This document shows, piece by piece, positions 2,376-9,497 of a DNA stretch of 21,568 bases. Under the pieces are notes generated by a model. That model made no database searches, had not been told where the DNA came from, and saw only the letters and a program-made list of their open reading frames with translations. The stretch lies in the IMG/VR virus record IMGVR_UViG_3300008267_000464, positions 1 through 21,568 of that record. One strand, given 5' to 3'. Position 1 is the stretch's first letter, and each line of letters starts with the position of its first letter. The DNA comes from a virus. A program made the translations under genes and the position numbers.

Positions 2376-4406
2376 ATGCCAGAAACAATTGTATCACCAG
2401 GTGTATTAGCAATAGAGAACAATCAATCATTTGTAACTCAACAACCTGTACAAGCCGGGGCCGCTATTATAGGACCAACTGTAAAAGGTAAAGTAGGTAT
2501 CCCTACTATAGTAACTTCATATAGTGATTATTTAAATAAATTTGGTTCTACTTTTTTAAGTGGCAGCCAAACATATACTTACCTTACTTCTATTTCTGCA
2601 TATAATTATTTTAATAGTGGAGGTACATCATTATTAGTTACACGTGTTGTAAGTGGTGCTTTTTCTCCTGCATCCTCATCTTTAATTCCTACATCAACAG
2701 CAGCAACATCTGCATCTGCTACACTTAATTTAACTAGTGCAGTTATTACAGGATACACTGCTTCATTTAATGGAGTAAATATAATCCTATCAGGATCATC
2801 CACCCAAGATGCATTTAATAATGCTACTTCTTCAGGTGTTATTCCTTCAAATCCAACAAATTTTTACACTAACACAACTATTAATAGTAGTGCATCATTT
2901 GTTTCACCTAATATGAATATAATTTCTACAAATCCAAATGGTTTAATAGGAAATTCATATTATTATGTATCTGGAAGTACAACAGTATATTATACTGGTG
3001 GTAGTAATACTGAAGCATTTATTTTAGAAACCTTATCTAAAGGTGAAATAATGAACAGTACAGGACCTACAGGATCATATCAAACACTATTAAGTGGGTC
3101 TGCAGATAATTTTAGATGGCAAATAACTTCACCTGATGTTACTGCTGGTACTTTTTACTTATTAATCCGTCAAGGAAATGATAGTCTTATATCCCCATCA
3201 ATTTTAGAAAGTTGGGGCCCTTTATCACTTGATCCATATTCACCAAATTATATTGAAAAAGTAATAGGTAATCAAGTTGAGGCTGTTGTTAATGATAATG
3301 GAGAATATTATGTTCAATTATCTGGAAGTTTTCCAAATAATTCATCATATGTTCGTGTTAAAAAAGTTTTAACTTCAACACCAAATTATTTTGATAATGT
3401 AGGTAACCCTAAACCTGAATTTACAGGTTCGATTCCTTATTTTTCAAGTGGTTCTTTTGGAGATGCAGTTGGAAGTAATATTCCTAAAGGAATAGCAGGT
3501 GCATACTATGATAAAATTATTTTAGATAGTAATATTCAAGGTCTTCAAGCTAATGCTTATATTGAATCTATTGCTTTATTAGCCAATAAAGATGCTTATA
3601 ATTATAATCTACTAACAGCCCCAGGATTAATTTCAAATATAGGAAGTAATGCCTATAATGCTATTAACTCTATGATTGTTAATGCTCAAAATATAGGAAA
3701 TTCTATAGTAGTTTTTGATTTAGTAAAATATGATTCTACTATTGGAACTACATTATCTCAAGTTGCAGGATATGATACTTCTTATGCTGCAACGTACTGG
3801 CCTTGGGCTAAAACAGTAGACCCAAACACAGGAACCCAAGTTTGGGTACCCGCATCTACTCTAATACCAGGTGTATATGCATTCAATGATAATGTAGCTG
3901 CTCCTTGGTTTGCACCTGCTGGTGTAAATAGAGGTGTTTTAACTACTACTATTCAAGCAGAACGTGTTTTAACTCAAGGTAATAGAGATACATTATATCA
4001 AGCCAACATCAACCCAATTGCTACTTTTCCTAATACTGGAGTTGTAGTATATGGACAAAAGACATTAGTAAAGAAAAAAAGTTCTTTAGATCGCATTAAT
4101 GTACGTCGTTTATTAATTGAACTTAAAAATTACATTACTCAAGTAGCAAATACTTTTGTATTTGAACAAAATGATGCTGTTACTCGTAATAATTTTGTAT
4201 CTATTATTAACCCATATTTAGCTTCTGTCCAACAACAACAAGGATTAACAGCATTTCAAGTAGTAATGGATGAATCAAATAATCCTCCTCAAGTAGTTGA
4301 TAACAATCAAATGATAGGTCAAATTTATTTGCAACCTACTAAAACAGCTGAATATATTATACTAGACTTTAATGTATTACCTACAGGTGCAACGTTTCCT
4401 ATCTAA
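2376..4406 (+). CDS. tail sheath protein, first paralogue (T4 gp18-like)
   Basis: A 676-residue protein, close to the size of T4 gp18 (659). The N-terminus has the sheath pattern SPGVLAIENN and then PVQAGAAIIGPTVKG at residues 24-38. The C-terminal third has the conserved sheath core: GVYAFNDNVAAPWFAPAG near residues 497-514, VVVYGQKTL near 556 and SSLDRINVRRLLIELKNYI after it, then the VFEQND helix region and a final beta segment with QIYLQPT and FPI at the end. Sheath subunits polymerise around the tube and contract to drive it through the envelope. The middle (about 190-460) is the most variable part and should be the surface-exposed insertion. It has its own late-promoter motif and is followed by a second sheath gene of the same architecture. 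Confidence 0.93.
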   Translation: MPETIVSPGVLAIENNQSFVTQQPVQAGAAIIGPTVKGKVGIPTIVTSYSDYLNKFGSTFLSGSQTYTYLTSISAYNYFNSGGTSLLVTRVVSGAFSPASSSLIPTSTAATSASATLNLTSAVITGYTASFNGVNIILSGSSTQDAFNNATSSGVIPSNPTNFYTNTTINSSASFVSPNMNIISTNPNGLIGNSYYYVSGSTTVYYTGGSNTEAFILETLSKGEIMNSTGPTGSYQTLLSGSADNFRWQITSPDVTAGTFYLLIRQGNDSLISPSILESWGPLSLDPYSPNYIEKVIGNQVEAVVNDNGEYYVQLSGSFPNNSSYVRVKKVLTSTPNYFDNVGNPKPEFTGSIPYFSSGSFGDAVGSNIPKGIAGAYYDKIILDSNIQGLQANAYIESIALLANKDAYNYNLLTAPGLISNIGSNAYNAINSMIVNAQNIGNSIVVFDLVKYDSTIGTTLSQVAGYDTSYAATYWPWAKTVDPNTGTQVWVPASTLIPGVYAFNDNVAAPWFAPAGVNRGVLTTTIQAERVLTQGNRDTLYQANINPIATFPNTGVVVYGQKTLVKKKSSLDRINVRRLLIELKNYITQVANTFVFEQNDAVTRNNFVSIINPYLASVQQQQGLTAFQVVMDESNNPPQVVDNNQMIGQIYLQPTKTAEYIILDFNVLPTGATFPI

Positions 4407-4461: not shown

Positions 4462-6480
4462 ATGTCAAATTTCACAACTTCTCCTGGAGTAGCAATTAGC
4501 GAAATAGATAACACCTTCTTAACTGGGCAACCAGTCCAAGCAGGTGCTGCTATTATCGGACCAACAGTTAAAGGACCTGTTGAAAAACCAACCCTAGTAA
4601 CAACTTACTCAGACTTTGTAACGATGTTTGGGGATACATTTATAAGTGGTGGTCAATCTTATTCCTATTTAACTTCAATTGCTGCTTACAATTATTTTAA
4701 TTATGGAGGAACTTCATTATTAGTTGCCCGTGTAACTAGTGGATCTTACACTTCAGCAATTACAAAAGACATTAATTCAGGAACACCACTAACTTCTGCT
4801 TCTGCTGTATTAAATTTAACTAGTGCTGCTACGGTAGCATATACTGCTTCATTTAATGGTGTAAATGTAATTTTATCAGGATCAAGCACCCAAAATGTAT
4901 TTAACAATGCAACCTCTTCAGGTGTTATCCCATTAAACCCAACAAACCTATACACTAATACTATCATTAATAGTAGTGCTTCATTTGCTTCTCCTAACAT
5001 GGTATTAACTGCAAATACAAATGCTGGTGTTGCTGGAAACTCATATTACTATACCTCAGGATCTACTACAGTATATTATGCTGGTGGTGCTAATACAATT
5101 TCTTTTGTATTAGAAACAATTTCTGAAGGAAATTTAATGAACAACTCAGGTTCTAATACTTTAGGATCTAATGGAACATTAAATTCAGGATCTACTTCTA
5201 ATATTCGTTGGGAAGTTTCTAATACTAACACCGGAGCAGGTACATTTAATGTATTAGTTAGACGTGGTAATGATACCGAATCTAGTAAAGTTGTATTGGA
5301 GGCATGGAACAATTTGACATTAGACCCAAATTCAACTCGCTATATTTCTAAAATTATTGGTGATCAAAAATTAAATTATAGCTCTATAAACAACCAGATG
5401 GAATTATCTGGAAGTTACCCAAATAATTCAAAATATGTACGCGTAAAATCTGTTAATTTACCTACACCAAATTATTTTGATGCTAATGGGGTTGCTATTA
5501 CAGCATATACTTCTTCAATTCCGTTAAATGGAAGTGGTTCAAACGGTGGTTCATTTTATAGTGCTACTGGTGATGTTAATAATATTATTAAATTGTACGA
5601 TGCTATTTCTTCTAATACACAAGGATTAGTAGGAGCTGATTATAATAACATGATTACACTTTTAGGTAATCCTGAAGCGTACCAATTTAATGTATTATTT
5701 ACTCCTGGTTTATTAAATGATACTCACACAACTCAAGTATCTAATATTATTTCAAATACAATTGCAAGAGGTGATAACATGTATGTACTAGATTTAGGAA
5801 CATATGGCAGCAAACTTTCAGAAGCAATAACACAAGCTCAAACTCGTGATACTTCTTATGCTGCAACATATTGGCCTTGGGTTCGTATTATTGATCCTGC
5901 AACAGGAAAACATGTTTGGGTACCATCTTCAACAGTAATACCAGGTGTATATGCATTTAATGATAAAGTATCAGCTCCTTGGTTTGCACCTGCCGGTATA
6001 AACCGCGGTGGATTAAGTACAGTTCTTCAAGCTGAATATAAACTTACACAAGGTAATAGGGATGATTTATACTCAAATAATATTAACCCTATAGCAACAT
6101 TACCTCAACAAGGTGTTGTAGTATATGGTCAGAAAACATTACAAAAAGCACAATCTGCTCTTGATCGTGTGAATGTACGTCGTTTGATGATTGAATTAAA
6201 ATCTTATATTCGTCAAATTGCTGATACTGTTGTATTTGAACAAAATACTATTGCTACAAGAAATTCATTCTTATCACGAGTTAACCCATATTTAGAAGCA
6301 ATTCAACAAAAACAAGGATTATATGCCTTTAGAGTTATAATGGATGATTCAAATAATGGACCAGCAGTAATTGATCAAAATCAATTAGTAGGACAAATTT
6401 ATATCCAACCTACTCGCACAGCTGAATTTATTTCATTAGATTTTATTTTACAACCAACAGGAGCTCAATTCCCAATATAA
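4462..6480 (+). CDS. tail sheath protein, second paralogue (T4 gp18-like)
   Basis: A 672-residue tandem paralogue of the preceding sheath gene, collinear over its full length. Shared blocks include PVQAGAAIIGPTVKG (again residues 24-38), YTASFNGVN-ILSGSSTQ, FNNATSSGVIP, TSYAATYWPW, PGVYAFNDKVSAPWFAPAG (from ~494) and VVVYGQKTL (from ~551). Divergence is concentrated around residues 200-460, the likely outer domain. Both copies keep the complete N-terminal and C-terminal strands used to mesh neighbouring subunits, so neither looks degenerate. It lies directly before the tail tube gene, the usual sheath-tube order. Either the sheath is a hetero-polymer or the two are used in different parts of the tail; the sequence does not say which. 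Confidence 0.93.
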   Translation: MSNFTTSPGVAISEIDNTFLTGQPVQAGAAIIGPTVKGPVEKPTLVTTYSDFVTMFGDTFISGGQSYSYLTSIAAYNYFNYGGTSLLVARVTSGSYTSAITKDINSGTPLTSASAVLNLTSAATVAYTASFNGVNVILSGSSTQNVFNNATSSGVIPLNPTNLYTNTIINSSASFASPNMVLTANTNAGVAGNSYYYTSGSTTVYYAGGANTISFVLETISEGNLMNNSGSNTLGSNGTLNSGSTSNIRWEVSNTNTGAGTFNVLVRRGNDTESSKVVLEAWNNLTLDPNSTRYISKIIGDQKLNYSSINNQMELSGSYPNNSKYVRVKSVNLPTPNYFDANGVAITAYTSSIPLNGSGSNGGSFYSATGDVNNIIKLYDAISSNTQGLVGADYNNMITLLGNPEAYQFNVLFTPGLLNDTHTTQVSNIISNTIARGDNMYVLDLGTYGSKLSEAITQAQTRDTSYAATYWPWVRIIDPATGKHVWVPSSTVIPGVYAFNDKVSAPWFAPAGINRGGLSTVLQAEYKLTQGNRDDLYSNNINPIATLPQQGVVVYGQKTLQKAQSALDRVNVRRLMIELKSYIRQIADTVVFEQNTIATRNSFLSRVNPYLEAIQQKQGLYAFRVIMDDSNNGPAVIDQNQLVGQIYIQPTRTAEFISLDFILQPTGAQFPI

Positions 6481-7016: not shown

Positions 7017-7044
7017 TACTAAGTCAAAAACAATAAACAAAATG

Positions 7045-7078
7045 AAAGCTCCAAAGAAATTTGGGGCTTTTATTTTTT
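7045..7078 (+). terminator. intrinsic terminator after the tail tube gene
   Basis: An 11-bp stem, AAAGCTCCAAA (7045-7055) with TTTGGGGCTTT (7060-7070), contains one G-T wobble and is closed by a GAAA tetraloop. It is followed by the T-rich tract TATTTTTT. This is the clearest rho-independent terminator in the window. It separates the sheath-tube genes from the secreted-protein gene. Confidence 0.9.
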
Positions 7079-7133: not shown

Positions 7134-9107
7134 ATGAAATTTTTAAAATTAATATTTTTTATATTACTGTATAATATAGGGTATAACCAATATTGTCCCG
7201 CTTTAGGACCTGATCAAATATTGCCTTGTGGTATAGGATCAACAATTTTAACCGCAGATTTAAGTCAATGCTCCGCAGGTGCTAACCCCAATCAAACAAC
7301 AGATTATAGTGTTTTAAACATACCATATGTTGCTCAAACCAACACAGGTACTAATTTAATAATGGTTGATGATTCTCAACAGGGTCCATTTAATATTGGG
7401 TTTAATTTTTGTTTTTTCGGAACAACATATACTCAATTTTATATAGGTTCAAATGGTTGGATTTCATTTAGTGGAGGTCAACCAATTACATTTACCACTC
7501 AAACTATCCCTACTACTAACCCTAATATACCTAAAAATTGTATTATGGGCCCATGGCAAGATTGGCACCCAGGTTTAGGTGGTCAGATTAAATATCAAAC
7601 TGTTGGTGTTGCTCCTTGTAGAAAACTTATTGTTAGTTGGACTAATATGCCTATGTTTAGTTGTACTACTAACCAAGGTACATTTCATATTGTAATTTAT
7701 GAATCTACAAATTATATTGACAATTATATTCAAAATAAACCCGCTTGTTTACAATGGCAAAATGGAACAGCAATACAAGGTATTCATAATAATATAGGTA
7801 CATTAGCAATAACTGTACCTGGTCGTAATTCAACAACTTGGACAGCAACAAATGATGCTTGGAGATGGACCCCATCAGGTCCAACAGTAACTCCAACATT
7901 AACTTGGTTTCAAGTTGGTAACCCAAATCCAATTGGATGGGGTCCTACGATTAATGTAACTCCTCCTGCTGGTGGAGCTCAATATACTTGCCATTTTGTT
8001 TATCCTGTATGTAATGCTGGTTGGTCAACTTGTAATTCTGGAGGTGGTTTAGGGCCTGATACTGTACTTGTTATACCAAATTTATCAATTCCATCAACAG
8101 GACCTATTAATGGATTAGATACAATATGTTATTTAAGTTCAAATGAAACATATAGTGTTCCTTTACAACCTACTTACAACTACTCTTGGAGCACAACAGG
8201 AAACCTAATGTCAGGACAAGGCACAAACCAAATTACAATCGATTTTAGTTCATTCCCTCCAGGTCTTATTTCAAATGCTATTCAAGTAATACCTGAAGAA
8301 AATGGATGTACTGGTTTACCTATTTTATTAGATATTTTTATTTTAAATGTTTTACCTGTAATTGATTCTATAGGACCATTTTGTGAGTATGATGAATTTG
8401 TTACTTTAAATGCATTTCCTGTTGGAGGAATATTTAGTGGTAATGGTATTACAAATAATAATTTTTACCCTGAAAACGCGATAGGAACAAATATAATAAC
8501 TTATACTTATACTCAAAATGGGTGTGTATTTGATACTGCAACTACAGTAATTGTTAATCCTCAACCAACACTTGATTTAATTTCCCCATACAACCCATTT
8601 TATGAAATTTGTGAAGGCGATTCAGTAGTAACTTTATTTAATGCTATTTCTAATTTACCAGGATATAATGAATGGTCATTTATGGATTCAACATACCAAC
8701 AAAATAATCTATCTATTTTATTTGAAAACCCAGGAATATTTCCATTATCAGTAATTCATTATTCTAATGGATGTGCTTCACCTCAACAGCAAACAGTAAT
8801 TACTGTTGCTCGTTGCCCTGAACTTTTATTTTATACTCCAAATTCATTTACTCCTGATGGTGATGAACATAACAACACCTGGAAACCTGTATTTGAAGAT
8901 GGATTTGATCCTTATGATTTTCATGTAGAAGTATATAATCGTTGGGGAGAAATCATATTTGAATCATATAATTATACAGAATATTGGGATGGAACATATA
9001 ATAATTCACCTTGTCCTGTAGGATCATATGTATACAAAATTCAATTTGGATCTAAAGAAAATAGTAATAACCAAATTATAAGCGGAAACATTAATCTTAT
9101 TAAATAG
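7134..9107 (+). CDS. secreted multidomain protein with T9SS type B (gliding-motility-associated) C-terminal sorting domain
   Basis: A 657-residue protein. Residues 1-19 form a typical signal peptide: MKFLK, a hydrophobic core of Leu/Ile/Phe, then YNIGYNQ. The following Cys lacks a lipobox. Residues ~87-260 form a beta-rich, Cys- and Trp-rich domain with IGFNFCFFG and GSNGWISF, a pattern common in Bacteroidota surface proteins. Residues ~322-389 resemble a PKD-like domain, and ~413-476 a second repeat of the GGIFSGNGI...ITYTYTQNGC type. Residues ~566-657 are the sorting domain: TPNSFTPDGDEHNN, VEVYNRWGEIIFES, WDGTYNNSPCPVGSYVYKI and a final strand. In Bacteroidota, type B domains such as that of SprB direct export across the outer membrane by T9SS and surface attachment with a PorP/SprF-like partner. 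A virion protein would not need a signal peptide. The gene is therefore likely expressed and displayed by the infected cell. It has its own terminator upstream and host-type promoter, like a moron. Confidence 0.88.
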   Translation: MKFLKLIFFILLYNIGYNQYCPALGPDQILPCGIGSTILTADLSQCSAGANPNQTTDYSVLNIPYVAQTNTGTNLIMVDDSQQGPFNIGFNFCFFGTTYTQFYIGSNGWISFSGGQPITFTTQTIPTTNPNIPKNCIMGPWQDWHPGLGGQIKYQTVGVAPCRKLIVSWTNMPMFSCTTNQGTFHIVIYESTNYIDNYIQNKPACLQWQNGTAIQGIHNNIGTLAITVPGRNSTTWTATNDAWRWTPSGPTVTPTLTWFQVGNPNPIGWGPTINVTPPAGGAQYTCHFVYPVCNAGWSTCNSGGGLGPDTVLVIPNLSIPSTGPINGLDTICYLSSNETYSVPLQPTYNYSWSTTGNLMSGQGTNQITIDFSSFPPGLISNAIQVIPEENGCTGLPILLDIFILNVLPVIDSIGPFCEYDEFVTLNAFPVGGIFSGNGITNNNFYPENAIGTNIITYTYTQNGCVFDTATTVIVNPQPTLDLISPYNPFYEICEGDSVVTLFNAISNLPGYNEWSFMDSTYQQNNLSILFENPGIFPLSVIHYSNGCASPQQQTVITVARCPELLFYTPNSFTPDGDEHNNTWKPVFEDGFDPYDFHVEVYNRWGEIIFESYNYTEYWDGTYNNSPCPVGSYVYKIQFGSKENSNNQIISGNINLIK

Positions 9108-9111
9108 ACTA

Positions 9112-9127
9112 ATATTTATAATTATAT
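9112..9127 (+). promoter_or_regulatory. putative late promoter motif, copy 5, abutting a start codon
   Basis: ATATTTATAATTATAT; its last bases overlap the ATG at 9126. If transcription starts the usual distance downstream, the mRNA for the 123-aa gene would be leaderless or nearly so. Confidence 0.55.
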
Positions 9128-9497
9128 GAAACTAGATAGTTTACGTACTTTAGTTAAAGAGGAGCTTAGTAAGCGACTAAATGAAGAATACCAAGATAAA
9201 TTTAAAATGGTAGGTATGCTCATTACTAACATTAAAAAACGCCCTCAAAAAGAAATATTCTCCGATATTCGCTCTATTCCAGGTATTACAGTAGCATCTG
9301 TAAAAGAACCTATGGAATATGCTGAACAGGATACTGAAAAATTCCAATCAATATTAACTGTTAAAGTTGATGGTTATCCTTGGATTGCTTCTAGTGGATT
9401 TGATCGTTCAAAAATGGAAGATATACGCAAAGCAATATTAAAAGTAGAAGGAGTATTATCATATAATGTAAGTTCTGATAATATTTCTACTCTTTAA
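9126..9497 (+). CDS. small protein of possible ferredoxin-like fold, unknown function
   Basis: A 123-residue protein. Residues 1-20 are a charged helix (MKLDSLRTLVKEELSKRLNEE). The rest reads as a beta-alpha-beta, beta-alpha-beta arrangement: FKMVGMLITNI, a helix around EIFSDIRSIPG, the strand ITVASVKEP, then SILTVKVDGYPW, a helix around MEDIRKAILKVEG and the strand VLSYNVSS. The paired IRxIPGI and xxxVEGVLSYNV helices followed by strands suggest a ferredoxin-like or ACT-like fold. It opens the baseplate block after the T9SS gene. No known family is recognised. It may be a minor virion or assembly protein because of its late-type promoter and neighbours. Confidence 0.65.
   Translation: MKLDSLRTLVKEELSKRLNEEYQDKFKMVGMLITNIKKRPQKEIFSDIRSIPGITVASVKEPMEYAEQDTEKFQSILTVKVDGYPWIASSGFDRSKMEDIRKAILKVEGVLSYNVSSDNISTL

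Follow-up and report, generated by a model that had tools for sequence, protein, structure and literature searches.

The IMG/VR virus record analyzed here (the window, 21,568 bases, a fragment with the tail cluster of a contractile-tailed phage) encodes what is probably a single-capture accessory gene for a surface protein, exported through the Sec pathway and type IX secretion system (T9SS) of the host. Taken on its own, export and display of this cargo protein by the infected Bacteroidota cell seems highly likely. The preliminary description had proposed that the host T9SS places a phage protein on the cell surface, and this host-surface reading is supported by a signal peptide with glutamine at +1, a complete type B C-terminal sorting domain (CTD) that phages have conserved, the accessory nature of the gene and purifying selection, but the idea of T9SS cargo in phages is not itself new, having been published for type A (PMC7468147). 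The patterns detected point to a conserved, phage-owned family of T9SS surface proteins common to contractile-tailed, jumbo and megaphages in metagenomes, and suggest that T9SS gives lytic phages a routine means of reprogramming the outer surface of the Bacteroidota they infect. The features concerned are as follows.

7039–7076, plus strand: intrinsic terminator that separates the tube gene from the cargo gene; its hairpin and T-tract persist both in relatives and in siblings with an empty site
7134–9107, plus strand: coding sequence of the phage-encoded T9SS type B cargo, 657 aa (open reading frame and domain matches)
7134–7187, plus strand: predicted Sec signal peptide, aa 1–18, predicted cut before Gln19 (codon 7188–7190), from the hydrophobic N-terminus, the conserved Gln and the Q-rule (PMC5837995)
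7188–8081, plus strand: N-terminal beta-rich domain, about aa 19–316/320 (conservation and AF2 model)
8097–8291, plus strand: PKD_6 (PKD-like) domain, aa 322–386 (E=2.1e-6)
8091–8813, plus strand: Ig-like beta modules, aa 320–560, with GhpA-like structure (AF2 and Foldseek)
8835–9101, plus strand: T9SS type B sorting domain (CHU_C / TIGR04131), aa 568–656 (PF13585 and TIGR04131 matches)
9113–9120, plus strand: TATTTATA, candidate late-type promoter box of gene 9126 (upstream-motif scan)
9126–9497, plus strand: gene 9126, 123 aa, with a weak profile match to a tail terminator (E=0.0046); its divergence tracks that of the cargo

The open reading frame occupies exactly the interval first described, between the tail tube and the next tail-cluster gene, and the export signals claimed for its two ends were both recovered. 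At the very C-terminus, a profile search of the cargo protein matched PF13585 (CHU_C) over residues 568–645 (E=1.8e-15) and TIGR04131, 'T9SS type B sorting domain', over residues 568–656 of 657 (E=2.6e-13), with scores exceeding the curated cut-offs (57.3 bits against 27 and 49.9 against 35, respectively); the cargo gene holds the only CHU_C copy in the window record. At the other end, the predicted signal peptide is MKFLKLIFFILLYNIGYN, with Q at position 19 following the predicted cleavage site, and among distinct N-termini of related loci 52/52 had a Gln at this site, ahead of a (Y/F/H/N)CP motif. The signal peptide around this Gln varied between loci, and among the first 20 residues of a 24-sequence alignment M1 and Q19 alone were invariant. 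A Gln directly after the signal-peptidase cut is the Bacteroidetes Q-rule (PMC5837995). The PKD-like repeats of the preliminary description were reduced to a single PKD_6 match in this copy, the C-terminal half being modelled as Ig-like beta domains.

These Ig-like modules (AF2; pLDDT mostly 80–93) had as their best solved structural relatives fragments of the grappling hook protein GhpA from Aureispira (Foldseek 9fls, E=7.2e-13). Long phage variants (about 735 aa, with relatives spanning 657–745 aa) contain an extra module, which in one of them (L042) is one clear SprB repeat (PF13573, E=1.2e-11). The N-terminal domain is the most conserved part of the protein; it was poorly resolved in the first full-length AF2 model because the alignment was narrow, and reached a pLDDT of 91.6 with an alignment of 70 phage and host sequences. 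A PDB search with this model gave no match at E<=0.001, and the only matches otherwise obtained were viral proteins of unassigned function. At E<=1e-30 the domain was matched in 146 of 395 Bacteroidota genomes in a class sample and in 167 of 240 in a family sample, so that it is a common element of Bacteroidota surface proteins.

Passage of type B cargo over the outer membrane takes place by way of SprA, and cognate PorP/SprF-like barrels collect and anchor it (PMC9143113, PMC12618676). These barrels become limiting when cargo is overproduced, and in F. johnsoniae 'orphan' type B substrates share one shuttle (PMC12618676). An adjacent porP/sprF gene, common but not universal for type B cargo, was missing for the phage cargo, and the nearest host homologs were also without an adjacent shuttle gene, the nearest lying about 13 kb off, as with orphan type B substrates. 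A profile scan detected PorP_SprF in 0/16 phage records versus 8/8 host genomes (5–22 copies per host genome), and therefore the cargo most likely borrows a host shuttle; with the control positive in hosts and none of the 16 phage records matching, a phage-encoded shuttle was rejected. Sec would thus recognise the signal peptide, signal peptidase I would cut before Gln19, probably with subsequent pyroglutamate capping, the host T9SS would carry the protein over the outer membrane by means of the type B CTD, and a PorP/SprF-type barrel of the host would collect and anchor it.

Within the window the neighbours of the cargo gene include two sheath genes, the tail tube, a gp26-like hub, the tape measure and a gp53-like wedge protein. 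The sheath genes are tandem full-length paralogs (2376–4406 and 4462–6480), both kept in many relatives, and between a fibre-like gene and these sheath genes lies a SET-domain gene (1728–2063; PF00856, E=2e-10) which, among the related loci fetched, was present only in the near-identical L002. A tRNA and Rfam search of the window gave no matches. The junction between the tube gene and the next gene held the cargo in 51 loci, was empty in 52 and had other inserts in nine; these counts do not estimate frequencies, since searches with the cargo gene brought in many of the loci. The order in the window is tube, terminator, cargo, the box ATATTTATAA and gene 9126; two siblings with an empty site, L082 (93% tube identity) and L099, have the tube, this same terminator, this box and gene 9126. 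CHU_C was found in none of 16 empty-site records elsewhere in the sequenced part of each. A single gene present or absent at a clean site in closely related phages is the mark of a moron or accessory gene, and this is the pattern of the cargo gene; a tail protein, by comparison, should be conserved throughout the tail cluster and co-evolve with it, whereas here the 52 empty loci lack the gene and, in the tail-cluster group, pairwise distances correlated between tube and hub (r=0.76) but scarcely between cargo and tube (r=0.15, p=0.11) or cargo and hub (r=0.05, p=0.30). Judged from these comparisons, the gene is accessory and dispensable. Its distances followed those of gene 9126 more closely (r=0.66) than those of tube or hub, and both therefore seem to have been exchanged as a block between phages.

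The tail-cluster position of the gene proved to be one of several genomic contexts. In 28 other cargo loci the flanks that were fetched contained no homolog of sheath, tube or hub, and their neighbours formed several unrelated sets, including metallophosphoesterases, a histidine kinase, an RNA ligase and endolysins; in some jumbo contigs the cargo gene lay beside lysis genes. Other genes also occupy the tube–hub junction, namely a different 267-aa gene (MSNTVKIKRGRPS...) in two loci (L109, L159) and a small membrane-protein-like gene of about 90 aa in five (L098, L133, L137, L145 and L160), a variety that gives this junction the look of a hotspot for insertions.

Transcription signals differed in a similar manner. 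The box TATTTATA occurs in the window at 106, 2350, 4432, 6498, 9113, 9500, 10566 and 12965, lying some tens of bases ahead of the majority of structural genes (found for 8 of 18 open reading frames, against an expectation of 0.3). Its reverse complement is the T4 late promoter TATAAATA. Across the group the TATTTAT box preceded the tube in 97/98 cases, gene 9126 in 40/40, the first sheath gene in 24/24 and the second in 17/17, and we interpret it as a candidate late promoter of these phages. The cargo gene sits between the tube terminator and the box of gene 9126, and only 2 of 36 distinct cargo upstream regions in tail-cluster phages had the box. A terminator was found upstream of the cargo in all tail-cluster loci examined, with a second, downstream terminator in the L046 group only. 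Of 12 loci scanned in phages with other contexts, 10 had the box ahead of the cargo gene; in one such phage (L028) the cargo gene alone among 31 open reading frames had it. Uniform late-promoter control of the cargo gene was rejected, as box usage differs by genomic context.

The phage copy had been thought unusual, but a survey of related phages revealed relatives encoded by at least 165 IMG/VR stretches (137 with a single-sequence query) and a near-full copy in the 634-kb megaphage LR745206. Among 50,697 deposited phage records there were two matches, both to uncultured huge phages, and matches on plasmids turned out to be ordinary host CHU_C proteins with 25–43% identity. CHU_C was present in all 16 cargo-carrying phage records scanned, exactly once in each of the 15 from IMG/VR; the megaphage record (LR745206.1, L162) had four CHU_C genes along with two matches to Por_Secre_tail, of which one exceeded the cut-off of the family, and type A sorting domains were seen in four further records of the 16. 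Of 10 large records with the cargo gene or its tail cluster, 8 had terminase and none had integrase, with a control search finding integrases in 14/14 reference genomes, and the carriers are therefore phages, probably lytic. Lysogenic conversion was rejected on the same integrase counts.

A tree built from the N-terminal domain placed every phage copy, that of the megaphage included, in a single clade next to Bacteroidota proteins (SH-aLRT 99), and with a wider host sample this clade had UFBoot 100 and SH-aLRT 94 and was present in 100% of bootstrap trees, the bootstrap being incompletely settled. A single phage clade nested among Bacteroidota surface proteins is most simply read as one capture from a host with later spread from phage to phage; on this simplest reading the gene would have been captured once, long ago, from Bacteroidota and would since have moved among unrelated, apparently lytic phages. 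The dN/dS ratio was 0.16 for the N-terminal domain of the cargo, 0.31 for the remainder and 0.15 for the tube, low values showing that purifying selection keeps the protein functional.

An alternative explanation could be that the gene is a misassembled fragment of a host genome or a recent, functionless passenger, as might be thought from the frequency of the N-terminal domain in host genomes (146 of 395 in the class sample), but this would not account for the viral relatives (at least 165) with repeated synteny, for phage copies forming a clade apart from hosts, for terminase on 8 of 10 large records or for dN/dS of 0.16–0.31. Misassembly is rejected on the viral clade, the synteny and the terminase of the large contigs, and we regard this explanation as a whole as extremely improbable. 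Ig-like domains are common on virions, which lends support to the view that the cargo belongs to the virion, as a tail fibre, decoration or adhesin, and has merely retained host-derived Ig, signal-peptide and CTD sequences. The tail-cluster position in 51 loci agrees with such a role, and the late-type box ahead of the cargo in many other-context phages would also suit a virion gene. However, a signal peptide with invariant Gln at +1 and a type B CTD are kept under selection, close siblings such as L082 do without the gene, many phages hold it away from any detectable sheath or tube gene, the protein has no PHROG match, and in the tail cluster it lies behind a terminator and mostly without the box of structural genes. 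A virion role is decidedly unlikely in view of the signal peptide, of the siblings with an empty site and of a history not linked to tube or hub.

If the cargo is instead displayed by the infected cell, its purpose could be sought in several directions. Our tentative preference, held with somewhat less than even confidence, is that it remodels the cell surface by receptor masking or superinfection exclusion: receptors such as gliding adhesins would be masked or displaced, so that superinfection would be excluded or progeny spared from adsorbing to debris. In Flavobacterium, proteins of the gliding machinery are proposed receptors for phages (PMC7345892, which cites work on SprB and RemA), and masking or displacing them is therefore the most economical proposal. 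The main rival is an adhesion or aggregation factor, the displayed cargo tethering infected cells to particles, polymers or neighbours and aiding transmission of progeny. The structural match of the C-terminal half to Aureispira GhpA, the SprB repeat in long variants and the frequency of the N-terminal domain in Bacteroidota proteins are all consistent with adhesion, as is the strong conservation of that domain, suggesting one conserved ligand, but the cargo is much shorter than known long adhesins and the PDB search of the N-terminal domain (E<=0.001) recognised no ligand-binding fold; we consider adhesion doubtful, though worth serious attention. Rather unlikely, in our estimate, is a decoy, in which cargo made in quantity would occupy limited, stoichiometric PorP/SprF shuttles and anchors, and SprB-type adhesins, the host type B proteins proposed as phage receptors, would be lost and superinfection blocked. 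Were this true, it would be superinfection exclusion by competition for a secretion shuttle. The cargo gene offers a concrete handle on superinfection exclusion, gliding and adhesion during infection of Bacteroidota.

Phage morons and receptor-masking proteins include Lom and Bor of lambda and Llp of T5. These, like the cargo, are single accessory genes, and they alter the envelope of the infected cell as the cargo is proposed to do, but they are outer-membrane proteins or lipoproteins whereas the cargo would use T9SS. With SprB-type T9SS type B cargo of Flavobacterium johnsoniae it shares the arrangement of signal peptide, adhesin-like body and type B CTD and, in long variants, the SprB repeat; it differs in being phage-encoded, in its 657–745 aa rather than giant size and in the lack of a shuttle gene in the same genome, and in not lying beside porP/sprF it resembles orphan substrates (PMC12618676). 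Cryophage, a single cryoconite phage, encodes proteins with a type A T9SS sorting domain (Bellas et al. 2020, PMC7468147), and these, like those of the present phages, would use the host T9SS; the Cryophage cargo is variable, consisting of enzymes and PA14 proteins, in contrast to one conserved, adhesin-like type B family in many phages. Gut phages of crAss-BACON cluster 2 have T9SS sorting-domain proteins near head genes, but these contain BACON domains, unlike the present cargo, and CTD type and family history are absent from the available portion of the description (PMC6949934). Porphyromonas gingivalis phages encode secreted proteins obeying the Q-rule, but they are integrated and the accessible text describes no T9SS CTD for them (PMC10367356), whereas the cargo carriers are large and apparently lytic. 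Phage T9SS cargo is thus already known as type A, while a type B, SprB-like phage family seems new within the searchable literature, where no report of one was found and outside which most subscription journals lie.

An additional pattern was seen in jumbo-phage loci (L057, L044, L049, L060 and others), where unrelated small proteins have a common N-terminal tag (MKIIITESQ.., KLTESDLTRIVKRVINE..). Thirty-three such proteins were found, 19 with a TATTTAT box, and the shared tag is possibly a capsid-targeting or prohead-protease tag of internal virion proteins.
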